Positions 1,235 through 53,859 of a DNA stretch of 64,000 bases are shown here, in pieces; position 1 is the stretch's first letter; each line of letters opens with the position of its first letter. The position numbers and the translations under genes are program-made. This DNA comes from an uncultured Pantoea sp. (lineage in GTDB: Bacteria; Pseudomonadota; Gammaproteobacteria; Enterobacterales; Enterobacteriaceae): contig CAJYVD010000031.1 in the NCBI GenBank assembly GCA_913778495.1, forward strand, positions 53,670 through 117,669, in the 5' to 3' direction. The notes beneath the pieces are model-generated. The model saw nothing but the letters and a program-made list of their open reading frames with translations. It was not told where the DNA came from and did no database searches.

Positions 1235-2839
1235 ATGAATAATCCCCTTTCCGCCGATGTGGTGGTGATCGGTGCGGGTGTAACCGGTTCGTTACTGGCT
1301 ACCCGGCTGGCCAAAGCCGGCAAGTCTGTGCTGTTGCTGGAATCAGGTCCTAAAGTTGATCGCGACCAGTTAGTGGCGCGCTACCGCGCCTCGGCATTTA
1401 AATCCGACTTTATGTCACCCTATCCTTTTTCCCCTCTGGCCCCGCATCCTCGCTACACACCTGAGCCAGATGACTATTTACATCAAGCCGGTCCGCATCC
1501 TTTTGCAGCGCAATACATCCGCATGTTTGGCGGCACCAGCTGGCATTGGGCAGCCCAGCTGTGGCGATTTGTGCCAAACGATTTTCGTCAACACAGTCAG
1601 TACGGCATTGGTAAAGACTGGCCGATCGGCTATGACGATCTTGAAGAGTATTACTATCAGGCAGAATGTATTGCCGGGGTCGGCGGCTCGCCTGATAACG
1701 GCTCACCGCGCCGTCATCCTTACCCTATGGCGCGAGTCCCGGCGTCCTGGCTGCAGCAACGCGTCACTGCCCGCCTCGCGCCTGAGTTTACCGTGCTGGA
1801 TGACAGTACAGGTCGAAACAGCCGCAGTTTTGATGGGCGTCCGGCCTGCTGTGGCAACAATAACTGCATGCCCGTCTGTCCGATTGACGCGCAATATCAC
1901 GGCGGCATCGCCGCACAACAGGCAGAAAACAGTGGCGTCAAAGTCATCACTGAAGCGGTAGTGTACAAACTTGAGCATGATGCCCGGGGCCGCATTATCG
2001 CTGCCAATTACTTTGACTGGAACAAAGTGAGCCACCGCGTCACCGCGGAGACGTTTGTGCTGGCAGCCAACGCCATCGAGACGCCAAAGCTGCTGCTGAT
2101 GTCTGTGAGTGACACCTTCCCGCAGGGCATCGCAAACGCGCGCGGCATGGTTGGACGCAACCTGTGCGATCATCCGGCCATCGGCGTGACCTTTGATGTG
2201 GATGAAGAGATTTGGCCTGGACGCGGGCCGGTGAGTCCCTGCTCTATCGGCCAGTTCCGCGATGGCGCATTTCGGGGTGAACATGCGCCCTTCCGCATCG
2301 ATATTTCCAACGCATCCCAGGTCGCGGCCGTAACAAAAGAAGCGCTAGCAGAGGGCTATTTTGGTAAAAAACTCCAGGAGCAGATCCGCTTCAGAGCCGC
2401 TCGCCGTCTGAGCATCAAAAACGCGCTGGAGCAACTGCCCGACCCAAATAATCGCGTGACGCTGAGTGACAAAAAAGATCCGCTGGGTCTACCGACGCCC
2501 TCACTGTTCTGGAACATCGACGACTATGTGGTAAAAGGCACGGCAAAAACCCGCGAATGCTATGACGCCATCGCCGCTAAACTTGGCGCCTCAAATATTC
2601 GTCACAGTAAAAGTGGCAAGTTTTCCAATCGCCAACACATCACTGGCACCTTATCGATGGGGCTTGATCCCGCGACCAGCGTCACCGATGCGTGGGGCTG
2701 CGCACATGACCACCCAAACCTCTTCATGGTCGGGACTGGCGTGATGCCCACCGTGGGTACCTGCAACGTAACACTCACGGCGATGGCATTGGCATTGCGT
2801 ACGGCAGACAAGATTTTGCAGGAGACTCAGCATGGCTAA
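1235..2839 (+). CDS. GMC-family FAD dehydrogenase, catalytic subunit with 3Fe-4S cluster motif
   Basis: A 534-residue GMC oxidoreductase. The N-terminus has the FAD-binding Rossmann motif VVVIGAGVTG (residues 10-19). The catalytic pair typical of GMC enzymes is visible as H468 (RQHITGT) and N511 (GTCNVT). Cysteines C205, C206, C211 and C215 (CCGNNNCMPVC) have the same 1-5-4 spacing as the 3Fe-4S ligands of bacterial FAD glucose dehydrogenase (Burkholderia cepacia type), so electrons should pass FAD to 3Fe-4S to the cytochrome c partner. No signal peptide is present; export probably depends on the Tat-signalled small subunit encoded at 715-1215. The stop overlaps the start of the cytochrome gene by 8 bp, implying translational coupling. 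Family members oxidise gluconate, 2-ketogluconate, sorbitol or glucose; the substrate is unresolved. Confidence 0.92.
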   Translation: MNNPLSADVVVIGAGVTGSLLATRLAKAGKSVLLLESGPKVDRDQLVARYRASAFKSDFMSPYPFSPLAPHPRYTPEPDDYLHQAGPHPFAAQYIRMFGGTSWHWAAQLWRFVPNDFRQHSQYGIGKDWPIGYDDLEEYYYQAECIAGVGGSPDNGSPRRHPYPMARVPASWLQQRVTARLAPEFTVLDDSTGRNSRSFDGRPACCGNNNCMPVCPIDAQYHGGIAAQQAENSGVKVITEAVVYKLEHDARGRIIAANYFDWNKVSHRVTAETFVLAANAIETPKLLLMSVSDTFPQGIANARGMVGRNLCDHPAIGVTFDVDEEIWPGRGPVSPCSIGQFRDGAFRGEHAPFRIDISNASQVAAVTKEALAEGYFGKKLQEQIRFRAARRLSIKNALEQLPDPNNRVTLSDKKDPLGLPTPSLFWNIDDYVVKGTAKTRECYDAIAAKLGASNIRHSKSGKFSNRQHITGTLSMGLDPATSVTDAWGCAHDHPNLFMVGTGVMPTVGTCNVTLTAMALALRTADKILQETQHG

Positions 2840-4166
2840 CTACTGGACCACCTTAGGTGGCGCAGGCGTGCTACTTTTTGCTGCGGTGCAAGCACATGCG
2901 GTTGACCAAAGTGAACAGATTAAACGCGGCGAGTACTTAGCGATCGCCGGAGATTGTGGTGCCTGCCATACGGACGAACATCGCGCCCCGTTCAGCGGCG
3001 GGCATGCGATCGCCAGTCCGCTCGGCACGATCTTTAGCACCAATATTACGCCCTCAAAAACGGCGGGCATTGGCAACTACAGCGAAGCACAATTTGCCGC
3101 TGCATTACGTAAAGGGGTCCGCGCCGATGGTAGCCAACTGTATCCCGCGATGCCTTACACTGCTTACGCCCGGCTAACCGATGACGATGTTTCCGCGCTT
3201 TATGCCTATTTTATGCATGGCGTGCAGCCGGTGGACACGCCAGCAGAAAAGACCGCACTGCCTTTCCCCTTTAATTTGCGTTTTAGTATGGCGGCATGGA
3301 ATTTGCTGTTTGCGGATAACCGAGTCTTCCAGCCTGATGCGTCACAGTCGGCGATGTGGAATCGCGGCGCCTACCTGGTGCAGGGATTAACGCACTGCAG
3401 CACCTGCCACACGCCGCGCAATGTGCTGATGGCAGAGCAACCATCGAAAAATCTGCAAGGTGCTTCACTGGGCACGTGGTATGCACCGGATATCACGGCT
3501 ACCACGCTTCAGGGAAAATCGCAGTGGACCCGAGAGATGCTTGCAGAGTACCTCGCAACCGGCCATGCGGCTAACGGTGCAACGGCAGGTGGGCCGATGC
3601 GTGAAGCCATTGATAAGAGCTTCTCGCGTATGACACCGCAGGATCGCGAGGCAATTGCAACCTATCTGCTGCCTGTCGCCACCGATATCCCCGCATCGTC
3701 AAAATCTACGGGGCTTACGCCCGTTCAGGGTGATGATTTTCCTGACACCCTGGCAAAAATGAGCGAAGGTGAGCAGGTTTACCGTAACAACTGCGCATCT
3801 TGTCACAATCTTTCCGGACAGGGGCTTAATGGACTGCCAGCCTTGCAGGATCACCCCATACTCAATAAACCTAATGCGGATAATGTGGCGATGGCCATTC
3901 TGCAGGGTGTTTGGCCTGAGCATGGACAAGGGATGATCGGCTTCGCTGATTCGCTAAACGATGTGCAAGTTGCGGCCGTCACCAATTATGTGATGCACGA
4001 TATAGGCCACAGTTCAGTGCAGATCAGTCCCGACCGAGTTAGCGTGCTTCGTGCTGGCGGGGAGACGTCACCGCTATTGATGCTGTCGCGGATAGGGATG
4101 GGATTGGCAGTCGCTGCAGTAATTCTCACACTGTTTTGTTGGCGAAAAAGGCGGGCTTCACGCTAA
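2832..4166 (+). CDS. Triheme membrane-bound cytochrome c subunit of the dehydrogenase
   Basis: A 444-residue protein with an N-terminal signal peptide (hydrophobic residues 9-22, cleavage near AHA), three CxxCH heme sites (C42-H46, C189-H193, C321-H325) and a C-terminal membrane anchor followed by WRKRRASR. This is the standard layout of the cytochrome c subunit of membrane-bound gluconate/alcohol-type dehydrogenases, which passes electrons to ubiquinone on the periplasmic face. It is the last gene of the operon begun at 715, overlaps the FAD subunit gene by 8 bp, and is followed directly by an intrinsic terminator. The partial gene at the window start is a paralogue of its C-terminal third. 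Confidence 0.93.
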   Translation: MANYWTTLGGAGVLLFAAVQAHAVDQSEQIKRGEYLAIAGDCGACHTDEHRAPFSGGHAIASPLGTIFSTNITPSKTAGIGNYSEAQFAAALRKGVRADGSQLYPAMPYTAYARLTDDDVSALYAYFMHGVQPVDTPAEKTALPFPFNLRFSMAAWNLLFADNRVFQPDASQSAMWNRGAYLVQGLTHCSTCHTPRNVLMAEQPSKNLQGASLGTWYAPDITATTLQGKSQWTREMLAEYLATGHAANGATAGGPMREAIDKSFSRMTPQDREAIATYLLPVATDIPASSKSTGLTPVQGDDFPDTLAKMSEGEQVYRNNCASCHNLSGQGLNGLPALQDHPILNKPNADNVAMAILQGVWPEHGQGMIGFADSLNDVQVAAVTNYVMHDIGHSSVQISPDRVSVLRAGGETSPLLMLSRIGMGLAVAAVILTLFCWRKRRASR

Positions 4167-5908: not shown

Positions 5909-6397
5909 ACCGTGTTTATCAGCTTAGTGTAGTTTCGTTGCCGGGCTGATTAAGATGATGTATCGATAGAATGAAACGTAGAGTGAGATAAGCGATATTC
6001 ACTGCGTGAATGATGGTGTTAAGCACCTAAGCATTAACGCCGTTCAGCTAAAGGAGGGGAGGGGAGGCGCTGATTCAGCATAAAGGCATATAAGATTAAT
6101 GAAGTACAAAGCGTTGGGATTGAAGGTACAAATCTCACATTCTTTGCGTGAAACGCCGGGAATTTCAATCTGAAATATTTCAACTTTTTTTATAAAAAAC
6201 AATTAATTATACATTAAAACCACTTGGGTATTTTTGCGAATTTGACGCCACGCTCAATGGCAGATGGCAGTCGGACTTTGCTCCCAGCCACGCGATCAAA
6301 AGATAATTGCACGTCAAAGATTTTATGATTTTTCATTAAATGTTGCACAACACATCCATCTCTGTACACTAACAAAAAAATGCCAACGGAGCGAAAA
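5909..6397 (+). promoter_or_regulatory. parAB promoter/operator region
   Basis: An AT-rich intergenic stretch. A plausible sigma-70 promoter has -35 TTGCAC (6342-6347), a 17-bp spacer and -10 TACACT (6365-6370). The interrupted palindrome TGTTG-CA-CAACA (6341-6352) overlaps the -35 box, where an autoregulating ParA would be expected to bind. A purine-rich run lies at 6051-6068. No open frame with coding character is seen in the rest. Confidence 0.5.
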
Positions 6398-7606
6398 ATG
6401 AAAAGTCATTACGGCGGGGTGGATGAAACAGCGCGCAGGGCCAACGCGATGCTTCGTAGTATGAGTGATGATATCAGCGACAGACGCAGCGAGTTTGGTT
6501 TGAATCAGTACTACCAGACCTTTACCCGTAATTCGGTCGCCAATTTACCCAAACTGAGCCGCCGGGCCGTTGAACAAGCCATTGAAGAGATGGAACAGCA
6601 AGGGCACGTTTTCGGCAAGAAGGACGCAGGTAATGCCCGGCATTACGCCCTGACTATTCAAGATGTTGTCGACATTTACGCGCACCGCAAGGTTCCTAAA
6701 TACCGCGACCTGCACGCTGGCGAAGGTCCGTTTGTGATGTTCGTCGTCAACCTTAAAGGTGGCGTTTCGAAAACGGTCAGCACGGTTACGCTGGCGCACG
6801 GACTGCGCGTCCATCAGGATTTACTACAGCATGACCTGCGTATTTTGGTCATTGACCTCGATCCCCAGGCCTCCAGCACCATGTTCCTTAATCATGCCAA
6901 TAGCATCGGTTCTATTATGGAAACCGCCGCACAGGCCATGCTCAACGATCTGGATGCCGACCAGATAAAAGAGGACATTATCAAGCCGACGATTATTCCC
7001 GGCGTTGATGTGATCCCGGCTTCAATAGACGATGGGTTTATCGCCAGTCAGTGGAACGATCTGGTGCAAGAGCATCTGCCCAATATGCTCCCTTCAGAAG
7101 TGCTGCGTCGCACGCTGATTGATCGGGTCGCAGATGATTATGACTTTATCTTTATCGACACGGGACCACACTTGGATGCGTTTATGCTCAATGCGTTAGC
7201 CGCCAGTGATTTGTTGCTGACACCTACGCCTCCCGCGCAGGTCGATTTTCACTCCACATTGAAATATTTAACGCGCCTGCCTGAAATGATTGAGCAACTC
7301 GAGGAAGAGGGGATCACACCGCGCATAAAGGGCAACATCGGTTTTATGTCCAAAATGACGGCTAAGCGCGATCATGAAATGACCCACGGCTTGGCTCGCG
7401 ATGTTTTCACCTCGCACATCCTCGACGCCACATTGCCTCGTCTGGATGGCTTCGAACGTTGCGGTGAGAGTTTTGATACCATCATCAGCGCCGATCCCAG
7501 CTCCTATCCCGGCAGCGCCGAGGCACTGAAAAATGCTAAACGCGAGGCAGAACGCTTCACCCAAGCGGTGTTTAAACGGATTGAATTTGTAAGGGGTATG
7601 AAATGA
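6398..7606 (+). CDS. parA: Plasmid partition ATPase ParA (P1/type Ia)
   Basis: A 402-residue ATPase for active plasmid partition. The start at 6398 is preferred over 6380 because GGAG lies 6 bp upstream of it and nothing suitable precedes 6380. The first 110 residues form a winged-helix DNA-binding extension, the hallmark of type Ia (P1/P7-like) ParA proteins that repress their own operon. The deviant Walker A motif KGGVSKT follows (near residue 120), then Walker A' VIDLDPQASST and Walker B FIFIDTGP. It overlaps parB by 4 bp (ATGA). It should form a nucleoid-associated gradient driven by ParB bound at parS. Confidence 0.95.
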   Translation: MKSHYGGVDETARRANAMLRSMSDDISDRRSEFGLNQYYQTFTRNSVANLPKLSRRAVEQAIEEMEQQGHVFGKKDAGNARHYALTIQDVVDIYAHRKVPKYRDLHAGEGPFVMFVVNLKGGVSKTVSTVTLAHGLRVHQDLLQHDLRILVIDLDPQASSTMFLNHANSIGSIMETAAQAMLNDLDADQIKEDIIKPTIIPGVDVIPASIDDGFIASQWNDLVQEHLPNMLPSEVLRRTLIDRVADDYDFIFIDTGPHLDAFMLNALAASDLLLTPTPPAQVDFHSTLKYLTRLPEMIEQLEEEGITPRIKGNIGFMSKMTAKRDHEMTHGLARDVFTSHILDATLPRLDGFERCGESFDTIISADPSSYPGSAEALKNAKREAERFTQAVFKRIEFVRGMK

Positions 7607-8583
7607 AAAAGGGCATGGTCAAGCTGGGCCGTCAGTTAGGAAATTCCAGCTTTTCTAAAATGATGAATGAGTCTGACAGTGAACGTATTTTTACGCTCAA
7701 ATCAGGTGCAGAAGCGCGCTTCACGCTGACAAAAATTCTGCATGACGACATTGAATCGCAGACTTTTATTGATGCCGCGGTAAATGGCCGCGACCAGGCA
7801 TTTCTGACGCCTGAATCAGTCAGTGATATCGCCCGTACCATCAAGTTGCAGCAATTCTTCCCTGCTATCGGCCGAGAGGTAAACGGCCGCATTGAGATTC
7901 TTGATGGTTCGCGTCGTCGCGCAGCCTGTATTTATCAGGGCACACCTTTTGAAGTGCTGGTAACGCGCGACGCGCTGTCTCTGGCTGATGCCAGACAGTT
8001 GGCCGTAGATATTCAGACTGCTCGCGAGCACACGCTCCGTGAATTAGGTAAACGGCTTCGCCTGATGTATCCGGAAGGGACCAGCCAGTCTGATATTGCC
8101 GCTGCAGAAGGCCTTTCGCCAGCGAAGGTGACTCGGGCTTTTCAGGCAGCCTCCGTCCCGGACGACGTGATAGGCATTTTTCCGGCCGTAAGCGAACTTT
8201 CAATTAACGACTACCAAACGCTACTGGATGTGGTTGAGAAAGCCAGCCTTAAAAATATCGATGCCGCTGACCTTGCCGCTGCCGTCCGTGCTCGGTTGGG
8301 CGATGAAGCCGGAGCTGTCACTGACGATCCAGCAGTTAAAGCGCGCATTCTTCAGCATTTTCGCGCAGCGATAGCTGATGCCAAAACCGCCCCCGCACGC
8401 AAAAAGATTGTGACGGAAAAACTGGCTGACTTTACCGATAAAAAGCAATTTGCCCGTAAGAAAACGGATACGGAAAAGCGTCTTGTCACTTATGAGTTTT
8501 CGCGTGTTCCTGCTGAATATCAGGCGGAGCTCGATGCAGCGGTGCGCGCGGTTATCACGCGTATGCTGGCGGAAACACGTTAA
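7603..8583 (+). CDS. parB: Plasmid partition protein ParB (P1 type)
   Basis: A 326-residue centromere-binding protein. The ParB/Srx-type N-terminal domain contains GRIEILDGSRRRAACIYQGTPFEVLV (residues 95-121), the arginine-rich box II of CTPase ParB proteins. A central helix-turn-helix follows (SDIAAAEGLSPAKVTRAF, near 163-180) and then a C-terminal dimerisation part, the longer architecture seen in P1 ParB. It is translationally coupled to parA. A perfect 10-bp hairpin closes the operon 14 bp after the stop, and a parS candidate lies 124 bp after it. Confidence 0.93.
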   Translation: MKKGMVKLGRQLGNSSFSKMMNESDSERIFTLKSGAEARFTLTKILHDDIESQTFIDAAVNGRDQAFLTPESVSDIARTIKLQQFFPAIGREVNGRIEILDGSRRRAACIYQGTPFEVLVTRDALSLADARQLAVDIQTAREHTLRELGKRLRLMYPEGTSQSDIAAAEGLSPAKVTRAFQAASVPDDVIGIFPAVSELSINDYQTLLDVVEKASLKNIDAADLAAAVRARLGDEAGAVTDDPAVKARILQHFRAAIADAKTAPARKKIVTEKLADFTDKKQFARKKTDTEKRLVTYEFSRVPAEYQAELDAAVRAVITRMLAETR

Positions 8584-8596
8584 ACGTCATTCAAGC

Positions 8597-8619
8597 AAGA
8601 AGGGGGTGGCCCCCTTCTT
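8597..8619 (+). terminator. Hairpin at the end of parAB
   Basis: Perfect 10-bp stem AAGAAGGGGG/CCCCCTTCTT with a TGG loop, just after parB. There is no proper T-tract, so termination may be weak or Rho-assisted. Confidence 0.6.
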
Positions 8620-8706
8620 ATCGGCTCATCTTCCCCCGTTAGTAATCCGAAGATTACCCAAACGAATCTTTATCTAACCTTCTGTGTCATAAGATAAAAA
8701 CGCAAC

Positions 8707-8721
8707 ATTTCACATTGAAAT
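8707..8721. other. parS: Candidate parS centromere site
   Basis: ATTTCA-CAT-TGAAAT is a perfect 6-bp inverted repeat with a 3-bp spacer. The ATTTCA core is the same as in the heptamer ParB boxes of P1 parS, and the position (just downstream of parB) is also the same. The hexamer B boxes of P1 parS were not recognised, so this is a candidate only. Confidence 0.4.
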
Positions 8722-8888
8722 TCCCATCGAAGGCCTGCTCGTTGACTCCCCCTAAAGCTAAGTTGCCCTCAGGATCAGGTGCGCAAAAAAATATTATCTG
8801 CACGGGCGCTTTCCCATACGATAAAGAATCACGCTCTTACTCCATTCCCGTCTTGAGAAAATGACAAGTCGTAGCGTGAAATGGGCAA

Positions 8889-9425
8889 GGTATTTACTTT
8901 CATGCAGCACTTACTTAAGACGAGCATGTAAATGCCTTCATAGCCCGTTTCAGATCTGAAAGAGGGCGGTGGTCCCTTCTTTTGGACGCAAGTCTTGCTC
9001 GATAAATATCGCACCTGCTAGACAAAGCGAACCCTGAGACAGGTGCAACATAGGTTTGCAAGTGCTCACATTCTTTCAAAGAGGAGAAGTATCCAGTCAC
9101 ATGTACCTCCCTCAATGCGCTCTCCAAAGGTATTCACTTTCATGCATTGGTCGGTAGAGGGGATGGAGAATCGCGAGAAGTATTCACTTTCATGCGACAT
9201 CAAGGGTGACAAGGTCACAAAGGTATTCACTTTCATGAAAACGTGGGGGGCAGTGCATGAAAGTAAATACTTTAGCGGCTGCGCGCGTCATGAAACCTGA
9301 ATACAGGCGCCCCTGCAACATGCAAGCACATACCTTACGACGCATACCTCATGAAAGTAGATACTTTTTGCGGGGGTTACATGCAAGCAGAGACCTTTCT
9401 CCACAAGCATGAAAGTAGATACTTT
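8889..9425. repeat. Downstream iteron array (incA-like copy-control locus)
   Basis: The 14-bp core CATGAAAGTAAATA or its near variants occurs at 8891-8904, 9131-9144, 9181-9194 and 9224-9237 (as the reverse complement), and at 9256-9269, 9350-9363 and 9408-9421 (direct). Degenerate copies lie at 9319-9332 and 9380-9393. Spacing is irregular and orientation mixed, unlike the tight array upstream of repA. By analogy with P1 incA, these extra sites would titrate RepA and handcuff origins. The stretch 8584-9429 holds these sites, the hairpin and the parS candidate; no credible gene is present. Confidence 0.8.
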
Positions 9426-9429
9426 TTAC

Positions 9430-10314
9430 TTAGTTACCTTGTAACGCCTGCAATTTAGGGGAACGACTGCTTATAACGAACTGAATTTCTCGGCCTTTCT
9501 TCAGTTCAGCGAAATCGATATAGCCAATTTTCTGTAAGTCTGCCATGGCACGACGGATAATGGCATTTTGCAATTTTACTGGCGAACCCATTGCCAATCG
9601 CTCCCGCAGGCGCTTCATAGAAACAAACAGGGTACCCGCTGGCATGCTTTCGAAATAGATGTAGAGCGACTGGGCAGCTTCTTTGCGCGACAGTTCCGAC
9701 AGCGCCTTCAACCCCAGTAAAACCTTGTGGTCGTAGCGATAGAGCTCCCAGAGATTGCTGTCAGCCGTGATCTCTACGGTGTCGGTATTCATATTGAGCA
9801 CAGCGCGCTGTACAAGATGGGAAAACATCGACTTTTTGCCGTCTTTGCTGCTAAAACCCAGCGTTACGCTGGAGATATTGAACAGCGAATCATGCAGGCG
9901 TTTGCGCGAGCGCGCGTTCAGATCGGAGGATTTAATGCCACACATCTTAGCAAATTCGGTAAAAGGCAATTTAATGGTCTCTGCGCTGTAACCATAGGTG
10001 GAGAAAGCCATAATGATCCCTATCCACGTTTTGAAATCAGTAGACATACTGAGCTTGGCGCCCTGGATCTTTATGTCGGTATAGCCCTCGCGCTTCGCCA
10101 CTTCAAGACTTGAAAGCTCCTCAGATGCATCGATCATGAAGTCGCGTTTGCCCTTTTCTTTAGGCGCAACCGGCGTAAAGACGCTCAGCCTGAGCAACGC
10201 AACGGGTTGAACGGTCTTGTTGCTGTTAGGCTCCAGTAGATAAACGGTGTCCGAATCTTTCTTCACAATGGAAAAAGGGTTGTTCATGTCTATGAAATTG
10301 TTATCATTTTCCAC
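9430..10314 (-). CDS. repA: Replication initiator RepA (Rep_3/RepB family)
   Basis: A 294-residue theta-replication initiator with two winged-helix domains of the Rep_3 family. Conserved-looking segments include FKTWIGIIMAFSTYGY (near 95-110), LNARSRKRLHDSLFNISSVTLGF and ELSRKEAAQSLYIYFES. The preferred start is the GTG at 10314, which has AAGGA 9 bp upstream; an ATG at 10287 lacks a ribosome site. The start codon directly abuts a consensus DnaA box (10315-10323). Iteron arrays lie on both sides of the gene, so RepA should both open the origin and control copy number, and probably represses itself because the promoter region is filled with its binding sites. Confidence 0.93.
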   Translation of the reverse strand: MENDNNFIDMNNPFSIVKKDSDTVYLLEPNSNKTVQPVALLRLSVFTPVAPKEKGKRDFMIDASEELSSLEVAKREGYTDIKIQGAKLSMSTDFKTWIGIIMAFSTYGYSAETIKLPFTEFAKMCGIKSSDLNARSRKRLHDSLFNISSVTLGFSSKDGKKSMFSHLVQRAVLNMNTDTVEITADSNLWELYRYDHKVLLGLKALSELSRKEAAQSLYIYFESMPAGTLFVSMKRLRERLAMGSPVKLQNAIIRRAMADLQKIGYIDFAELKKGREIQFVISSRSPKLQALQGN

Positions 10315-39984: not shown

Positions 39985-42183
39985 TCAGGCCGTTTCGGGG
40001 AGTCCTGCCAGCAGTTTATCCAGCGTAACCGGATAGTCCCTGATGCGCACACCCGTGGCGTTGTAAATGGCATTCACAATCGCCGCACCCACGCCGCACA
40101 GTCCTAATTCGCCCACGCCTTTGGCCTTCATCGGCGAGGAGATCGGGTCGGTGTCGTCCAGGAAAATGACCTCCTGGCGCGGCACATCGGCGTGCACCGG
40201 TACTTCATACGTCGCCATATCATGATTGACGAAAAAGCCGCGCTTGGTATCTACCGCCAGCTCCTCCATCAGCGCGCCGCCTAACCCCATCGTCATGGCA
40301 CCGATCACCTGGCTGCGTGCCGTTTTCGGATTGAGGATCCGGCCTGCCGCACACACGGCCAGCATGCGGCGTACCCGGACTTCACCGGTGGCGATATCTA
40401 CCGCCACTTCGGCGAAATGCCCGGCAAAGGTAGATTGCTGGTAGCGTTCATCCAGATCGCCAAACTCGATGGTGTCTTCAGCGACCAGCGTTCCGTTGAC
40501 GACGGCGTCGGTGAGCGGACGGCTATGTCCTGCGGCACGGACCTCGCCCTCAACGAACTCAGCCTCCGCCGCATCCATGCCGAGCGCCTGGGCCACCTGC
40601 TCGCGCAATTTGACGCACGCCGCGTACACGCCCGAGGTCGAGGTGTTGGCGCCCCACTGGCCGCCGGATCCTGCGGACACCGGGAAGTCGGAGTCACCCA
40701 GCCGAACGCGGACCTGCTCCAGCGGCACGCCCAGCATCTCTGCCGCCGTTTGCGCAATAATGGTATAGCTGCCGGTGCCAATATCGGTCATGTCCGTTTC
40801 CACCGTCACGGTGCCCGACGCCTCCAGCTGCACGCGCGCGCCGGAAGCCGACAGCAGGTTATTACGGAAACCGGCCGCCATCCCCATGCCCACCAGCCAG
40901 CGTCCGTCTCTGACCTGCGCAGGTTGCGCCTTGCGCTGCTGCCAGCCGAACGCCTCACTGCCGGTTTGCAGACACGCCACCAGCTGGCGGCGCGAGAAAG
41001 GACGCTGCGGATCGGCAGGGTCAACCTGCGTGTCATTGAGAATGCGAAACGCCACCGGATCCATGCCCACTTTCTCGGCGATTTCATCTATAGCGATTTC
41101 CAGCGCCATCAGGCCGGGCGCTTCGCCCGGCGCGCGCATTGCGTTGCCCTCGGGAAGATCCAGCGTCGCGAGGCGCAGCCCGGTAAGACGGTTGGCGCCC
41201 GCATAGAGCAGCTCCGTCTGCTGCACCGCCGTTTCCGGCGTACCGCCGGGCAGGTTCCCCGACCAACTCAGGTGTGAGAGGGCGGTGATATGGCCTTCGG
41301 CGTCGGTCCCGATGCGAATATGCTGACGCGTTGCCGGGCGGTGCGTGGTGTTATTGGGGATCATTGGGCGCGGCAGCATCACTTTGACGGGGCGCTTTAC
41401 GACGCGTGCGCCGAGCGCAGCCAGCAGGGCATCACTGCGCAGGAACAGTTTGCCGCCAAAGCCGCCGCCAATGTAGGACGAGATCAACCTTACTTTTTCT
41501 GGCGGAATATTCAGCGTTTTCGCCAGGTCGCTGCGACCCCAGTTGATCATCTGATTAGACGTCCACACCGTCAGAGCGTCCTGCTGCCACAGTGCCGTGG
41601 ACGCGTGAGGCTCCATGGCCATATGGCTCTGATCCGGCGTGGTATAGACCGCATCCAGCGTCACGCTGGCGGTACGCAGTGCCTGCTCAACATCGCCCAC
41701 CGCTTTATCCGGCGTGTCTTCCGGCGCCTGAGTGACGGACGATTGCGCCTCAGCGAGGTCATACGCACCTGGCTCACGTTCGCTGTGCACCACCACCAAC
41801 TGGGCCGCCGCGCGCGCCTGCTCAAAGGTTTCTGCTACCACCAGCGCCACGGCCTGGTGGTAGTGTTCGATGTGGTATTCCGCCAGCAAGCGGGCGGTGT
41901 TCATGTCGCCGATTTCCAGCTTGCCTGCCTGCGCGGCGGTGATCACGGCGAGCACGCCCGGCGCGCCTTCAGCGGCGTCGGTTTCTACCGCGATAAGCTT
42001 ACCCTTGGCGATGGGGCTCATCACCGGATAGCCGTAGACGGCGTCGGGCGCTTCACGATGGCGTTCATAGGCGTAAGGCGCACTGCCGGTGGTTTTTAGC
42101 GGCCCGTCGATGCGGTCGCGCGGTTGACCGATGTAACGCTGGCGGTCAATGGGATTAGAACCTGCGGGTTTATCGAACTTCAT
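39985..42183 (-). CDS. paoC: Aldehyde oxidoreductase molybdenum-binding subunit
   Basis: A 732-residue large subunit of a xanthine-oxidase-family aldehyde oxidoreductase, the same length as E. coli PaoC. The catalytic Glu is E692 in [10 protein letters not shown], also the E. coli position. Moco-binding segments such as [29 protein letters not shown] and [14 protein letters not shown] are present. The enzyme oxidises aromatic and other aldehydes to acids and helps detoxify them. It is the third gene of paoABC: the paoB stop overlaps its start by 4 bp. Electrons pass Moco, 2Fe-2S (PaoA), then FAD (PaoB). Confidence 0.95.
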
Positions 42184-43136
42184 GGTGTGGCTCTCCCTTC
42201 TGCCAGGACGGCGGCGAGCGTACGCTTCGCCAGCACGAGCTTGAATGCGTTGCTCTCGGTGGGGCTGGCGTCGTGGAACAGGGCATCAAACACCGGCCCG
42301 GCGCCTTGCGCCATCGCCAGGTCTGCAGCCTCGCGCCGCCAGGGCTGATGCGCCACGCCGCCGAAGGCGACGCGTCCGGTGCCGTCAGGCTGCACCACGG
42401 CGGCCACCGAGATCAGCGCAAACGCGTAAGAGGCACGATCGCGCACTTTGCGATAGATGTGGGTACCACCCAGCGGCGGCGGCAGCACCACCGCGACGAT
42501 AAACTCGCCGGCTTCCAGCACCGTTTCCAGATGGGGCGTGTCACCGGGCGTACGGTAAAATTCGGCGAGCGGGATCGCCCGTTCGCTGCCATCAGGACGC
42601 ACGGTTTCTACCGTGGCGTCGAGCAGACGCATCGCGACCGCCATGTCGCTGGGATGGGTCGCAATGCAGTGTTCGCTGGCGGCGACCACCGCAAGCTGGC
42701 GGCTGTAGCCGTCGCGCGCGGCGCAGCCGCTGCCGGGCGCGCGCTTATTGCACGGTTGATGGGTATCATAAAAATAGGGGCAGCGAGTGCGCTGCAGCAG
42801 ATTGCCAGCCGTGGTGGCCTGGTTGCGCAGTTGACCGGAGGCTCCTGCCAGCAGCGCGCGCGACAGCACCGCGTAATCACGACGCACGCGCATGTCCGCC
42901 GCCAAATCGGTGTTACGCACCAGCGCGCCGATGCGCAGACCGCCATCCGGCGTGGTTTCAAGGGTGTCCAGTGCCAGGCCGTTCACGTCGATAAGGTGCA
43001 GTGGCGTTTCGATCTCCAGCTTCATCAGATCCAGCAGATTGGTGCCGCCGGCAATGAATTTTGCACCGGGCGTTTGCTGGGCGCAGCGGGCCGCCTCTTG
43101 CGGCGAGCCGGCTTTCTCATAAGTGAAGGCTTTCAC
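42180..43136 (-). CDS. paoB: Aldehyde oxidoreductase FAD-binding subunit
   Basis: A 318-residue FAD subunit, as long as E. coli Pao[18 protein letters not shown] is the FAD pyrophosphate-binding motif, and [20 protein letters not shown] is the second FAD block. Cysteines in RTRCPYF...PCNK...GSGC fit the additional 4Fe-4S cluster loop peculiar to PaoB-type subunits. It overlaps both neighbours by 4 bp. Confidence 0.94.
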
Positions 43137-43711
43137 GATGTCTGGCCTCCCGCGTAGTCTTCAATGGCGTCCAGGATGTTGGCGTAAGCGCCGCAGCGAC
43201 AGATGTTGCCGCTCATGCGCTCGCGGATCTCATCTGGCGTCAGGGCTGGCGTTGCCAGTAAATCACCCGAGACGTGGCTGGGAATACCCGCCTTGATCTC
43301 CGCCAACACCGCCAGCGAGGAGCAGATCTGTCCCGGTGTACAGTAGCCGCACTGATAGCCATCGTGCCGGATAAACGCGGCCTGCAGCGGATGCAGATCC
43401 TCGGGCGTGCCCACCCCTTCGATGGTGGTGACCTCTGCCTCGTGCTGCATCACCGCCAGGGTCAGGCAGGCATTAATGCGGCGGCCATTGACCATCACGG
43501 TACAGGCGCCGCACTGGCCGTGATCGCAGCCTTTTTTGGTGCCGGTGAGGTGCAGGTGCTCCCGCAGCGCGTCCAGCAGTGTGGTGCGGCTGTCAACGTG
43601 AAGGTGGTGCGGCCTGCCGTTGACGTTGAGCGTCACCGGAAGGGTGTGCGGTACGGATTCAGGCGGCTTTTCAGCATCCTGCAACATAGGGGTGTCGTGT
43701 GGGGTGCTCAT
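43133..43711 (-). CDS. paoA: Aldehyde oxidoreductase 2Fe-2S subunit, lacking a Tat signal
   Basis: A 192-residue iron-sulfur subunit. The start at 43711 has GGAGG 5 bp upstream; a longer frame to 43747 adds 12 residues without a signal. [12 protein letters not shown] is the plant-type 2Fe-2S site, and [10 protein letters not shown] with NICRCGAY the second cluster. E. coli PaoA has a twin-arginine leader of about 50 residues that sends PaoABC to the periplasm. Here the protein begins [15 protein letters not shown], with no RR motif or hydrophobic stretch, so the complex should stay in the cytoplasm unless exported another way. Confidence 0.93.
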
Positions 43712-43880
43712 ACCCGCCTCCAGATCAAAAAGGGGGTGCCTGCGCACCCCAGGTTATCGTTGTTTTAGGAAACATTAAGCATAGACGGCGCAGGGGTAAT
43801 TGGGAGGCGGTTCAGGTTTTTGCTGAGAAAAGCGCGTTGCTGAAAAATGCGTGCCCCTTTTTTTTTCACCGCGGTAGTGG

Positions 43881-43947: not shown

Positions 43948-45207
43948 TCAGTGAGGCATAATGTAGCGATCTTTGTCCTCTTCCCGCACCGTTTCTTGCA
44001 GAGACACCCGCCAAATCCGGCCGTCAAGCTTAATCTCGCTCACGCGAAAACACGCCAGGGGTGAATAGAGGCTCTCATCCTCACGGTGATCAAATGCCAA
44101 GCCGTTAGGGGGGTAGATGTGACGGCTGCTATTTCCCGTGAGAGTAAAAATCACGCGCCCCTTGCCCTGCGGCGGATCTTTATACACTATATTTTTTACG
44201 TACTGCTGATTTGACGAAGTGGAGTAAAACTGACTCACTTCATACACAGCGTCAGGCTGGTTTTTAAACCGCTGGTTCAATTCATTAATACCCTCCTGCG
44301 TCATATATTCACCCCGGTACGTGGTTATTGTATTTTTACCTTTGTTGTTATAAAACAGTTTTGCATAGGGGGTTATGTCCTGATGAATACTAACTGCTTC
44401 ATTTTCAATGTGATATTTTTTAATCGGGTTGTTGTAAAATATTTCTGGGCCTTTTGCTTTCTCATATTCTCGGATAACTTTTTCTCCAAGCTTATTACCC
44501 GCTTTCTCAGGATTGCCGGGATCATAGCGAGCGCGCAGCGTAAGGATTAAGGAATTTATTGCGTAACAACCTGAATTTGTATGATAAATAACACCGAATC
44601 TCTCAATTCTTTTTAGTTCATCTTCTGTTAAGGCTTTTCCTGCTGTTGCGGTTACGCTGCCCGAGGGCGTCGTCTTTGCTCGTTTGGCGCCAGGAGTATG
44701 CGCTTCCAGTGCCCTTTCAATAGCATTCTCCTTGTGTAAAAGTTCCTGTAATTTGCTGACTAACTCGTTGATTTTATTTTGTGAGTTATGGATATCTTGG
44801 TTCACTGCGGACAGTGTGTGCTGATACCGCGCGACGGCTTCTTTTACCCGAATTTCAGGTGCCGCAGAACCGGCTGCTTGCGCCGCAGCGCGTCGTTCAG
44901 AAGCATAGCGATTTTTATATAAATGCTTCTTAATAAAATTCTGGTTTTCACCATTTTTAAAAAAACCATTTTTTAGTCTTAATAGCGGGTCGTTGTCTTG
45001 TCGCGTCGAAATGCTTTTTACCTGACTAATGTCGAATTTTATTCGATTGCTTCTGTTTCGTTTATCCTCAAGGGAAAATTTCAATTCATCTTGCTTGTTA
45101 AATACGAGATTAATTTCTGAGGCAATACGTTTCTTCTCAGTTTTCAACTCTTGTAGTGTAGGAGGTATCTGCGCCACGACTGGCGTGTTTATAGCTTTAA
45201 TAGGCAC
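43948..45207 (-). CDS. Putative arginine-type ADP-ribosyltransferase toxin/effector
   Basis: A 419-residue protein, AT-rich compared with its neighbours. Residues 15-60 and 120-170 look like charged coiled coils. The C-terminal 220 residues carry the mono-ADP-ribosyltransferase triad of the R-S-ExE class: R298 in TTYRGE, S329-T330-S331 in FYSTSS, and E376-D-E378, followed by F387 and V389 at the spacing seen in ExoS/cholera-turn-type enzymes (E...F at +9, V at +11). This class modifies arginine in host or rival proteins. No Sec signal, hrp box, immunity gene or secretion marker (VgrG, PAAR, RHS) was found, so the route of delivery is unknown. The family call rests on motifs read by eye. Confidence 0.72.
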   Translation of the reverse strand: MPIKAINTPVVAQIPPTLQELKTEKKRIASEINLVFNKQDELKFSLEDKRNRSNRIKFDISQVKSISTRQDNDPLLRLKNGFFKNGENQNFIKKHLYKNRYASERRAAAQAAGSAAPEIRVKEAVARYQHTLSAVNQDIHNSQNKINELVSKLQELLHKENAIERALEAHTPGAKRAKTTPSGSVTATAGKALTEDELKRIERFGVIYHTNSGCYAINSLILTLRARYDPGNPEKAGNKLGEKVIREYEKAKGPEIFYNNPIKKYHIENEAVSIHQDITPYAKLFYNNKGKNTITTYRGEYMTQEGINELNQRFKNQPDAVYEVSQFYSTSSNQQYVKNIVYKDPPQGKGRVIFTLTGNSSRHIYPPNGLAFDHREDESLYSPLACFRVSEIKLDGRIWRVSLQETVREEDKDRYIMPH

Positions 45208-45601
45208 CTTATCTTTTCCTTATGAAAATTTTTATCACGATGAACCGTAAAGTATTTCAACATTACGCCCTGGCGACGCTCAAAAAGCGCCCTTGTGGCA
45301 CCGCATATTTTTGTCAAAAGGCATACCTACCCTGGGAAAGTGAAGAAGTCTCTTCGGCTCCTGATCTTTTACATAAAGCTGAGAGTCAAACTGACCTGTA
45401 GGTGATAACTTCATATAATGGTACTTATATGAAGCTAGGATCCCTGTAACGATCCCGCTATACTGAGCGGGTTAGCCTGTTTTCTCCGGTGTGTGGATAA
45501 AAAACAGGCAGCGCTACGTAAAATCTGACCGGGTAACCCCGCTGTTGCAGCATCAGAATTTACGTAGCATCGCCCGAAGCGCAACCTGCGGACGCCAACC
45601 G
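45208..45601. other. Intergenic region with lox-like site and hairpin
   Basis: Between the ADP-ribosyltransferase gene and the Cre-like gene, which are divergent. Besides the lox-like site it contains the hairpin CCCGCT-ATACTG-AGCGGG (45454-45471). The leading frame from 45491 to 45601 is open but lacks Cre homology. Confidence 0.5.
45405..45438. other. loxP-like recombination site
   Basis: 34 bp made of two 13-bp arms around an 8-bp spacer. The left arm is ATAACTTCATATA (loxP arm: ATAACTTCGTATA, one difference), the spacer is ATGGTACT and the right arm is TATATGAAGCTAG. The arms are inverted repeats matching at 11 of 13 positions, with the inner 10 perfect (45409-45418 and 45425-45434). The spacer is asymmetric, giving the site a direction as in loxP. 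It lies 163 bp upstream of the Cre-like start codon. Confidence 0.85.
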
Positions 45602-46627
45602 ATGACCAAGCTCACCCCGTTTGACGATCTCTCCCTCGCCACGGAGGATGACAGCGCGATACGCGCGCAGCTGCACGCCTTTGTGCGCGATAAAGACGCG
45701 TTCTCCGCCAATACCTGGACACAGCTGATGAGCGTGATGCGCATGGCTGCACGCTGGTCGCGCGAGCACAATTGCGCTTTTTTGCCGATGTCACCCCACG
45801 ACCTGCGTGAATACCTTCTGTTTTTACAGCGCAGCGGACGCGCCTCATCCACCGTCAGCACGCATGCGGCACTCATCTCTATGTTACACCGTAACGCAGG
45901 CCTGACGCCGCCCACCGTCTCGCCGCTGGTGTTTCGCACGATGAAAAAGATCAACCGAAACGCCGTTCTTGCAGGGGAGCGCGCCGGCCAGGCGATCCCG
46001 TTTCGCATTGGCGATCTGCTGGCGCTGGATGGCAAATGGGCGAGTTCGCCGCGTTTGCAGCACGCACGCGATCTGGCTTTTTTGCATGTGGCTTACGCAA
46101 CGCTGTTGCGCATCAGCGAGTTAGGCCGCCTGCGCGTGCGCGATGTCACGCACGCCGCTGACGGACGTATCGTGCTGGACGTGGGCTGGACCAAAACCCT
46201 GGTGATGACCGGCGGCCTGATTAAAGGGCTGGGCACACTTTCTTCTGAGCGCCTGACGGCGTGGCTAAAGGCGTCCGGTCTGATACAGACGCCCGATGCC
46301 TTTCTTTTTGCGCCTGTGCACCGCAGCAACCGCGCGCTGGCCGTGACGGATAAACCGCTGTCGACCCGGGCGCTGGAAGATATCTTTGCGCGAGCGTGGC
46401 GTGAAGCCGGGCCGCAAGCGGCGCAAGCCAACAAAAATCGCTATCGCGGCTGGACCGGCCACAGCACGCGCGTCGGCGCCGCGATGGATATGGCGAAAAA
46501 CCGCTACAGCCTCGCACAGATCATGCAGGAAGGCACGTGGAAAAAAACCGAAACGCTAATGCGCTATATTCGCCACGTTGATGCCCACGCAGGCGCGATG
46601 GTGGACTTGATGGCGCGCTATGCCTGA
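45602..46627 (+). CDS. Cre-type tyrosine recombinase
   Basis: A 341-residue recombinase (P1 Cre has 343). The start at 45602 is chosen by alignment to Cre (MTKLTPFDDLSL...); the ribosome site is weak and a GTG-started frame reaches back to 45491. Cre catalytic residues are all present within two or three positions: R170 (LLRISE), K198 (WTKTL), H287 and R290 (GHSTRVGAAMDMA), W313 (GTWKK) and nucleophile Y322 (RYIRHVD). The N-terminal core-binding domain also follows Cre (DAFSANTWTQLMSVMRMAARW; DLREYLLFLQRSG). It should recombine the adjacent lox-like site and resolve plasmid dimers. Cre relatives with their own lox-like sites have been reported from Pantoea (Panto/pox), probably its closest kin. 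Confidence 0.93.
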   Translation: MTKLTPFDDLSLATEDDSAIRAQLHAFVRDKDAFSANTWTQLMSVMRMAARWSREHNCAFLPMSPHDLREYLLFLQRSGRASSTVSTHAALISMLHRNAGLTPPTVSPLVFRTMKKINRNAVLAGERAGQAIPFRIGDLLALDGKWASSPRLQHARDLAFLHVAYATLLRISELGRLRVRDVTHAADGRIVLDVGWTKTLVMTGGLIKGLGTLSSERLTAWLKASGLIQTPDAFLFAPVHRSNRALAVTDKPLSTRALEDIFARAWREAGPQAAQANKNRYRGWTGHSTRVGAAMDMAKNRYSLAQIMQEGTWKKTETLMRYIRHVDAHAGAMVDLMARYA

Positions 46628-46667
46628 AAACCCGTGGCGTTCGAGGCCGTTAACGATGGCTGCCACC

Positions 46668-47378
46668 CTATGCCTCTGGCACCAAATCGCGTTCTGCTTC
46701 CCCGCTCTCCAGTAGCGCGAGCAGCGCATCCGCCACCTGCTCCGGCGTATGCGCGATCGCCGCGATGGCGCTCTCCTGCGCGCTGGCCTCTGCATGACCG
46801 GCTTTTACGGCTCGGTAAAATTCCGTCTGCGTCACAAACGGGTAGAGCGTGGAAACGACGATCCCCGCCGAAGCCAACTCGAGGCGGGCGACGCGTGACA
46901 GCATATTGAGTCCGGCTTTGGCGCTGGTATAGGCAGCCGATCCCGCGTAGGTGCTTAGAGTAGCGCCTGAACTGACGTTAACAATGCTGCCTGCGCCTTG
47001 CTGACGCATAACGGGGATCACCGCCTGCATCATCCGTAGCGGCGCCACCAGGTTCAGGTCCAGCAGGTCAGTGAACGCATCGTCCGCGATCGCCTCAATG
47101 TTGGCGTGCAAGCCCTGTCCGGCGTTGTTGACCAGCGCGTCGATGCGACCAAAATGCTCGAGCGTGCGGCGAACGCTGCGCGCGATGTCGTCTGGGCAGG
47201 TGATATCACAGCGCAGCGGCAGCGCATGGTCTAACCCCTGCGCAAGCGCGGTCAGCCGTGCTTCCCGACGGGCCAGTAGCACCACCTGTGCCCCTGCGCG
47301 CGCGGCGGCACGGGCTGTCGCTGCGCCAATGCCCGAGGAAGCACCGGTTATCACAATCACTGCATCTTTTATTTTCAT
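46668..47378 (-). CDS. Short-chain dehydrogenase/reductase
   Basis: A 236-residue classical SDR. The start at 47378 (MKIKDAVIVITGASSGIG) is set by the Rossmann TGASSGIG motif at the N-terminus; a longer frame is non-homologous. NNAG, the catalytic Ser in VNVSSGA and the YTSAK motif (YxxxK) are present. It is divergent from an AraC-family gene that probably controls it. The substrate is unknown. Confidence 0.9.
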   Translation of the reverse strand: MKIKDAVIVITGASSGIGAATARAAARAGAQVVLLARREARLTALAQGLDHALPLRCDITCPDDIARSVRRTLEHFGRIDALVNNAGQGLHANIEAIADDAFTDLLDLNLVAPLRMMQAVIPVMRQQGAGSIVNVSSGATLSTYAGSAAYTSAKAGLNMLSRVARLELASAGIVVSTLYPFVTQTEFYRAVKAGHAEASAQESAIAAIAHTPEQVADALLALLESGEAERDLVPEA

Positions 47379-52485: not shown

Positions 52486-53859
52486 TTAGGCGGTGGTCTG
52501 CGTTTTCACGTGGGACTTCACGTCTACGCTGGGGTGCGCGCCCGCGCGTGCGAACAGCATGATGATGCCGGAGATAAAGCAGGGCACGGCGCCAAACCAC
52601 AGGGCCGCATCCTGCCAGTGTCCGCCGTGGCTCAGGACGCTGGTGGTACCGAGGCTGGCCACCACCGCACCCACCGGGCCCATCGCGGCAATCAGCGCGC
52701 CGGCTGTGGCCCGGATGGACGTCGGGAAGCTTTCGCTGATAAAAAACAGCGCTGCCGCATAGGGGCCGATCAGGAAGAACAGACCGACGCTGTACAGGGC
52801 GACGATGATGGCGAAGTTATCCGGGCAATAGAGCATGCCGGCAAAGGCCACGCCGCCCAGCATCCAACCGAACGCGATGGTATTGCGGCGGCCAATGCGA
52901 TCGCCCAACCAGCCGTGCGCCAGATAACCGCCATAGCCGACCAGGTTCGACAGGATCAGAATCAGCAAGGAGTTATCAAAGGAGACCGCATGGGTTTTGG
53001 TGATGACCGTGGTCCCGAGGACGCTAAATATCTGAATGGCAAACCAGTTAATCAGGAAAGCGCCACCCAGCACCAACGTGGCGCGCAGCGAGGTGCCACG
53101 AAACGCAGCGGCCAGGCCGCTACGCGCCTGCTCTTCGTAGGCGACTTGATAATCTGCCGCGACCTGACGCGCATCGTGTGCATTGCCCTGCTCACGCAGC
53201 TGCTGGATTTTCTTTTGTACCTGAAACTGCGGCGTCTCTTTTAATTTCAACGCCAGCACGGCGATGGCCAGCGAAGGCAGCGCGGCAAAAATAAAACTGC
53301 CCTGCCAGCCGATAAGCGGCAGTAGCACGGCGGTCAAGGCGGAGGCAACCAGCGCACCCACCGGCCAGCCGCCCTGCACCAGGCTATAAACAAAGCCTTT
53401 GCGCTTGTTGAGCTTGGGATCGTCCAGCGCGGTATAGAGCTCAGATAAATAGGTAGCGTTAACCGTTTGTTCGGCATAGCCCAGTCCGGCCACCGAGCGA
53501 ATGGCCGTTAAGGCGCCTTTACCGCCCGCGCCGCCAATGGCGGTCAGCAAGGAACACAGCGCTGCGCCCCCGACCGTGATAACGATCCCCATGCGCCGGC
53601 CAAGGCGATCCACCAGCGGACCGATGGCCAGGGCGATCACCGCGCCGCCCACGGCGACCCATGTGGCAATCTCGGCCTGTTCCACTTCACTCCAGCCAAA
53701 ATGGCCGCCGATTTCCGGCAGCAGCGTGCCGAAAAGAATGAAATCGTACACAGCGAAGACCCAGGCAAAAAAAGCGATCCAGGTGGCAAATTTCACATCC
53801 TTGATGGTCAACTGCTGCGGCTGCCAGCCGTTTACAGACGTTTTCTTGAAGATGCTCAT
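52486..53859 (-). CDS. MFS transporter (metabolite:H+ symporter type)
   Basis: A 457-residue, twelve-helix transporter. DRLGRRMGI (loop 2-3) and GDRIGRRNTIAFG (loop 8-9) are the MFS motifs. VYDFILFGTLLPEIGGHFGW in helix 1 places it with sugar-acid and small-metabolite symporters. A long central loop (residues about 195-245) is charged. It probably imports the substrate of this operon. Confidence 0.88.
   Translation of the reverse strand: MSIFKKTSVNGWQPQQLTIKDVKFATWIAFFAWVFAVYDFILFGTLLPEIGGHFGWSEVEQAEIATWVAVGGAVIALAIGPLVDRLGRRMGIVITVGGAALCSLLTAIGGAGGKGALTAIRSVAGLGYAEQTVNATYLSELYTALDDPKLNKRKGFVYSLVQGGWPVGALVASALTAVLLPLIGWQGSFIFAALPSLAIAVLALKLKETPQFQVQKKIQQLREQGNAHDARQVAADYQVAYEEQARSGLAAAFRGTSLRATLVLGGAFLINWFAIQIFSVLGTTVITKTHAVSFDNSLLILILSNLVGYGGYLAHGWLGDRIGRRNTIAFGWMLGGVAFAGMLYCPDNFAIIVALYSVGLFFLIGPYAAALFFISESFPTSIRATAGALIAAMGPVGAVVASLGTTSVLSHGGHWQDAALWFGAVPCFISGIIMLFARAGAHPSVDVKSHVKTQTTA

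Follow-up and report, generated by a model that had tools for sequence, protein, structure and literature searches.

A probable Cre/lox dimer-resolution module in Pantoea and a 56-bp element found beside lox and many dif sites

Does a tyrosine recombinase gene preceded by a short inverted repeat, on a contig from an uncultured Pantoea sp. (GenBank assembly GCA_913778495.1, contig CAJYVD010000031.1), form a genuine Cre/lox pair, and what would such a pair do for the replicon that carries it? The stretch of DNA analysed, referred to here as the window, comprises 64,000 nucleotides (positions 53,670 to 117,669 of the contig, forward strand), and coordinates are those of the window unless another record is named. 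The gene occupies 45602-46627 (+) and encodes a Cre-family tyrosine recombinase of 341 aa and of the Arg259 type, as judged from the open reading frame, matches in the PDB and a residue alignment. All 17 PDB sequences matched are Cre or Tre (best E ~1e-72), and the comparison with Cre that the original prediction had proposed gives 41.2% identity to the P1 protein over 325 aa. The catalytic set R-K-H-R-W-Y, corresponding to Cre R173, K201, H289, R292, W315 and Y324, is complete and in register, in agreement with the earlier description of a 341-residue recombinase that retains all six residues.

A 34-bp lox-type site of 13-8-13 design and of the C8-A9-T10 class, ATAACTTCATATA-ATGGTACT-TATATGAAGCTAG (arm-spacer-arm), lies at 45405-45438 (+), 163 bp upstream of the cre ATG, and is recognised from the sequence itself, from a profile and from the sites of relatives. 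It had been described as having a left arm one base different from the loxP arm and perfect inner arms, and this description holds, the inner nine pairs being perfect and 11 of the 13 pairs matching overall. The search for further copies suggested at that time shows that 45405-45438 is the sole place in the 4.09-Mb genome assembly that matches the loxP/window pattern with up to three mismatches. When scored with a profile of 37 distinct relatives' sites the window lox reaches 41.3, the next best place in the window scores 0.9, and the maximum on 25 Markov-1 sequences of 41 kb is -1.9. The 74 bp to the right of the site (45439-45512, +), which separate it from the element described below, hold two GATC sites (45439 and 45451) and, at 45459, a TATACT that resembles a -10 box and may act in a promoter; the promoter of cre may lie in this interval. 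P1 cre is controlled by Dam methylation, and at least one GATC is present in the corresponding interval of 36 of the 58 unique loci (0.33 expected per locus). A promoter inside lox itself, with a TATAAT formed by arm and spacer, was considered and rejected, since the corresponding -35 bases vary among the 58 loci.

The relatives of the recombinase come from two sources, 49 named genome contigs and 61 genomes of the window's own genus, which the named matches suggest is Pantoea in a broad sense; the related genomes behind all counts given here are not independent. A lox-like 13-8-13 site is located upstream of the gene in 79 of 82 recombinase loci, a set in which the window appears in triplicate and some species in duplicate, and which reduces to 58 unique upstream regions. 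No site was found in L019, L048 and L063, the first two of which look identical. Pairing of the same recombinase family with a different inverted repeat, which had been named earlier as evidence against the module, was looked for in the sequences, and no competing core site was seen among the 82 loci. The spacer starts with AT in 57 of the 58 unique loci and ends with T in all of them. The arms are more diverse: in the sites of 56 unique proteins, the triplet at arm positions 8-10 is CAT in 18 (the window type), TAT in 17, CGT in 13 (the loxP type) and TAC in two, and six sites have unlike arms. This variation tracks a DNA-contact residue, residue 259 following arm base 8, since it is Arg in 31/31 C8 loci and Pro in 19/19 T8 loci (unique proteins), as well as in Dre and in 6/6 mixed-arm loci. 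Arm class partly coincides with clade here, but P1 Cre (Arg, C8) and Dre (Pro), which stand outside the clade, follow the same rule; further residues that differ between the classes may be clade markers. The link between residue 259 and the arm agrees with published mutants of Cre, Dre and Panto, which showed this residue to matter for the choice between lox and rox (PMC4957104). The window genome itself encodes a second Cre relative (L004, contig C35), 60% identical and of the Pro259 type, with a T8-type lox. As the site is present in 79 of the 82 loci and varies with the recombinase, this appears to be a real module, and the window lox and recombinase are very likely a cognate Cre/lox pair. 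The target had been called self-contained and new or allied; the pair is indeed self-contained and has its own arm variant, but it is one member of a large family, with relatives at E <= 1e-30 in 48 of the 61 genomes of the genus. With three main arm classes among them, the 56 unique recombinase-site pairs offer naturally occurring material for the study of Cre specificity and could supply variant lox sites.

The pair resembles P1 Cre/loxP in its catalytic residues, in a 13-8-13 site with one left-arm base changed, in the position of this site upstream of the gene, in the GATC sites between the two and in the presence of the same element (see below). It differs from P1 in that the window protein is only 41% identical to Cre, in that its arms read C8-A9 where loxP has C8-G9, and in its location on a contig with plasmid Rep/Par genes where lox is 35 kb from rep. 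Furthermore, P1 has a 73-aa ORF between site and recombinase, for which the window gap of 163 bp is too short. Panto/pox and Dre/rox are likewise Cre relatives with lox-like sites of their own, and Panto also comes from Pantoea, but both Panto and Dre are reported to have Pro259 (PMC4957104), in contrast to Arg259 in the window protein.

Genes for plasmid ParA and ParB (6380-8583, +) and for a Rep3-type replication initiator (9430-10314, -) are present in the window, in accordance with the predicted distance of about 35 kb between lox and the replicon at 6380-10314. A megaplasmid had been proposed; the contig is 117,669 bp long and no overlap was found between its ends, so that the circularity and true size of the plasmid are unproven. 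On this contig the replication and partition genes accompany the only site of the loxP/window pattern in the assembly, an arrangement to be expected of a plasmid dimer-resolution system. The P1 precedent makes dimer resolution the likely task of the module. The contig additionally has a dif-like Xer site (C31:3787), and an ORF of 1002 aa (L103 656-3812, on C31), which, judged by its first residues, resembles a Tn3-family transposase, ends about 120 bp from this site. Contig C35, which encodes the second Cre relative, has a dif-like site of its own. Among the genus contigs listed with both features, cre and the dif-like site point the same way in 35 of 39 pairs, a count that omits some rows and is uncorrected for ancestry. 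Enterobacteriaceae replicons above 250 kb are reported to possess FtsK-dependent Xer sites (PMC11724359).

The original prediction described lox and cre within 45405-46627 and missed a second inverted repeat that lies inside these coordinates. This 56-bp accessory-type element (45513-45568, no strand assigned) consists of a half-site GCTACGTAAAATCTG (45513-45527), 26 bp, and an inverted half-site CAGAATTTACGTAGC (45554-45568), and is identified by sequence, by a strict match and by a profile. Within 170 bp of the start codon, the strict match detects 54 unique copies upstream of cre relatives, with a gap of 25 bp in 52 and 26 bp in two; within that distance it is absent in seven loci (L017, L019, L045, L048, L060, L063 and L082). 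A search anchored on lox with an arm profile, built from the same family and applied with a cut-off of 15, locates the element in all 58 unique lox loci, 47-175 bp (median 78) to the right of the site. All 79 lox loci score at least 30.7, whereas 200 shuffled 2.6-kb stretches do not exceed 1.3. In the loci without lox (L019, L048 and L063) the element was likewise not found by the strict match. Nine further lox places, on both strands, have no listed cre, and eight of them (L221-L227 and L281) carry the element with no Cre relative in the fetched stretches, of which that of L281 ends 439 bp beyond the element; the ninth, L228, has no element. A weak tenth lox (L232) was found via its element. 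In one case (L223 2343-2598) a cre-less lox has the element on both sides.

The same element is present in phage P1, at 169-223 of X03453, 100 bp to the right of loxP and with a 25-bp centre. An exact-pattern scan of viral contigs, which is keyed on the element and hence shows its neighbours rather than its frequency in P1-like phages, returned 87 stretches with the element, 72 of which have lox within 300 bp, in 68 cases at exactly 100 bp. Of the 15 stretches without lox, 10 begin no more than 110 bp before the element, too close for loxP to be included; the other five do not. A 73-aa ORF of the P1 type lies 35 bp to the right of the element in 75 of the 80 viral stretches examined for genes. 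In Cronobacter phage JK004 the element is near the edge of the fetched stretch and no lox was seen there, and the element was not found in the rox/dre stretch of D6. We found no description of such an element in the searchable literature; parts of it may be mentioned in a 1986 paper on the P1 cre regulatory region or in a 2023 survey of Cre-type recombinases.

Proximity to lox is only one of the contexts in which the element occurs. Among the matches listed for 61 genomes of the genus, there are 75 element places: 45 no more than 400 bp from cre, 19 up to 10 kb from dif (15 of them within 1 kb) and 11 near neither. Six of these 11 adjoin cre-less lox (L221-L225 and L232) and the other five (L229, L230, L231, L233 and L234) show no lox; in L229 a cre gene ends about 0.65 kb before the element. 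An order-level search of 197 genomes gave 23 with an element match, in 9 of 79 genera. The 23 best order-level loci include 13 with a dif-like site, which in 10 of these is 90-200 bp from the element; one of the loci with the element (L114) is a Pantoea cre, and outside the genus a dif-like site lies within 0.9 kb of the element in 13 of 22 loci. A relaxed scan of 40 dif regions chosen for lack of a strict match gave an element score above 5 in 13 (shuffle maximum 1.3, n=200), comprising 6 of 20 regions taken as chromosomal by their dif spacer and 7 of 20 others. The element is on the XerD side of dif in 18 of 19 cases in the genus, among the matches listed, and mostly on the XerC side in the order-level loci. 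None was found within 1.5 kb of the three dif sites of the window genome, one of which is on the contig of the window. Escherichia coli K-12 dif and F resD were also considered as carriers and rejected, no element being found around either. Xer can evidently do without the element, and so can some Cre relatives, given that many dif sites and D6 lack it. Copies with neither lox nor dif in the fetched stretch are L230, L231, L233, L234, L123, L124, L126 (perhaps by chance) and L127, the last four being those of the 23 order-level loci for which no explanation was found. Overall, the sequence comparisons give good support to a link between the element and both lox and many dif sites, and what follows on its function is put conditionally.

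Both arms of the element keep the same 15-base sequence and no mirrored changes occur at any of the 15 positions among 39 distinct arm pairs; lacking covariation, the arms look like paired DNA half-sites rather than an RNA hairpin. The centre is variable, with a CCCCTGC box that is forward in 31 and reverse in five of 54 copies, and rigid spacing around a variable centre is consistent with two half-sites for a protein. The reading that we prefer, and consider likely, is that of a plasmid Cre/lox dimer-resolution module in which the 56-bp element belongs to the resolution site and is not merely part of the cre leader; pairing, covariation and association are read from sequence, whereas activity, role and element function are proposed. 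According to this model, the recombinase would bind the two 13-bp arms of the lox located 163 bp upstream of its own gene and exchange strands in the 8-bp spacer, thereby converting plasmid dimers to monomers. A DNA-binding factor would occupy the 56-bp pair of inverted half-sites as part of the resolution site, most likely favouring resolution over fusion or setting the time at which the site is used, and the element might act likewise beside those dif sites that carry it. There are precedents in the cer and psi accessory sequences (ArgR, PepA, ArcA), where accessory DNA also lies beside the core site of a tyrosine recombinase. PepA and ArgR are reported not to act on P1 loxP (PMC2409434). 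Being 100 bp to the right of loxP in P1, inside the 236 bp of a published study's fragment, and common to many dif sites, the element is a concrete candidate, and one that can be deleted and can serve as bait for its binding protein.

The module shares with XerCD/dif and the plasmid xrs sites the presence of the element beside many dif sites and of a dif-like site on the window contig, but it has another recombinase and core site, and many dif sites, including those of E. coli and of the window genome, lack the element. The data suggest a helper site, previously unrecognised, that is common to Cre/lox and dif systems. A more far-reaching version of this proposal, which seems to us quite possible while falling somewhat short of probable, is that a single 55-bp element (inverted 15-bp half-sites 25-26 bp apart) serves as an accessory site for plasmid and phage Cre/lox and for host XerCD/dif across Enterobacterales chromosomes, plasmids and P1, and that a host factor bound to it signals the dimer state or timing.

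It is conceivable, but in our estimation rather unlikely, that the element merely regulates the expression of cre and of other recombinases of resolution systems, as the operator of a transcription factor or as part of the promoter, and plays no part in recombination. Its location fits such a function, as the start codon follows it at 21-40 bp in 55 of the 58 unique loci, and the annotated -10 box of P1 pR1 falls in its left arm, so that it may have some role in cre expression. Moreover, in five order-level loci, with no dif in the stretch, it is found just upstream of other tyrosine recombinases: those of L112 and L113 are 53-54% identical to F ResD, and those of L115, L116 and L119 are proteins of 361-362 aa with ~25% identity to Cre. 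The element nevertheless follows lox rather than cre where the two are apart. In L060 and L082, where lox is about 900 bp from cre, it stays with lox, 696 bp from the ATG, and it remains beside eight of the nine solo lox sites with cre absent from the fetched stretch; it is also found beside dif sites with no recombinase gene in the fetched stretch. These arrangements argue for the element as part of the resolution site.

A different question is whether the Cre/lox pair is mainly a device for cargo exchange or co-integration rather than a dimer resolver, which we consider improbable despite breakpoints that coincide with lox. The closest relative of the window, Pantoea sp. Mb-10 (L034, cre 89% identical), matches it from 45406 rightwards for 6.2 kb and at 40609-43829, and the two differ mainly between 43829 and lox, where there is one 107-bp piece at 75% and a weak protein-level match (43% over 172 residues). 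The gene that adjoins lox in this dissimilar stretch (43948-45207, -) shows at its C terminus a weak resemblance to ADP-ribosyltransferases, its Pfam ART score of 18.7 bits falling short of the cut-off of 22.3. P. ananatis plasmids share a right flank that begins at lox and is preceded by four unlike left flanks. In three of them the alignment reaches to 3 bp or less from where lox starts; the fourth (pPANA10) retains an intact lox but aligns only from 33 bp in, following a short deletion immediately to the right of the site. In three of these four plasmids the dissimilar DNA (3.5, 11 and ~30 kb) terminates, on its far side, where a dif-like site ends, and these breakpoints are consistent with natural crossovers at lox and dif. 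However, at least 80% of the lox-spanning query is collinear in 35 of the 58 matching records from P. agglomerans and its kin and in 6 of the 41 from P. dispersa, and each 17-50 kb stretch scanned contains a single lox, with none in the L097 stretch to the left of one of them. We rank the breakpoint reading as secondary on account of this collinearity across lox in P. agglomerans and P. dispersa and of the draft status of the LMG 2665 assembly, which supplies one of the four P. ananatis cases. A general role of lox as a hot spot for cargo is rejected, the pattern being seen in P. ananatis plasmids and beside the window lox and not in P. agglomerans or P. dispersa. Dimer resolution remains the preferred role. 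As separate observations, the P. ananatis plasmids L086, L088, L089 and L097 have unlike stretches of 3.5 to ~30 kb between a dif-like Xer site and lox, as if swapped by two recombinases, and LMG 2665 has two 100% identical 1226-bp lox-cre stretches with unlike flanks on two contigs (L040 and L041), which may be an assembly effect.

It is very doubtful that the element could be a very short transposon with a preference for resolution sites. Its inverted ends, the presence of 1-5 strict copies in 53 of the 61 genus genomes, many of them beside dif or lox, and the occurrence of the centre box in both orientations would suit mobility, but its length is fixed and its place beside lox is near-constant across genera and in P1. 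A MITE-like origin was rejected, as no flanking duplication of 3-12 bp was present at any of the nine elements checked. That the element is a structured cre leader RNA, acting as attenuator or riboregulator, is scarcely credible and was rejected, since despite arms that can pair and a leader that folds better than 200 of 200 shuffles (z -3.2), there is no covariation beyond chance at any of the 15 positions, the spacing is rigid at 25-26 bp around a variable centre, the element also occurs without cre beside dif and solo lox, and the window has no Rfam match at 45200-46700 at E <= 5.

More divergent arrangements are found in two genomes of another family (L109 and L110), in which a Cre-like gene with ~23% identity to Cre lies in the same 3-kb stretch as two elements and dif. 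In L109 a 13-8-13 site with near-perfect or perfect arms (1190-1223) is located upstream of the Cre-like gene (50-1108, -), and in L110 the perfect-arm site TTCACGCATGATA-ATTACAGT-TATCATGCGTGAA (1780-1813) is located upstream of its counterpart (1893-3055, +). The Cre-like gene, 13-8-13 site, element and dif thus occur together at a chromosomal dif locus.
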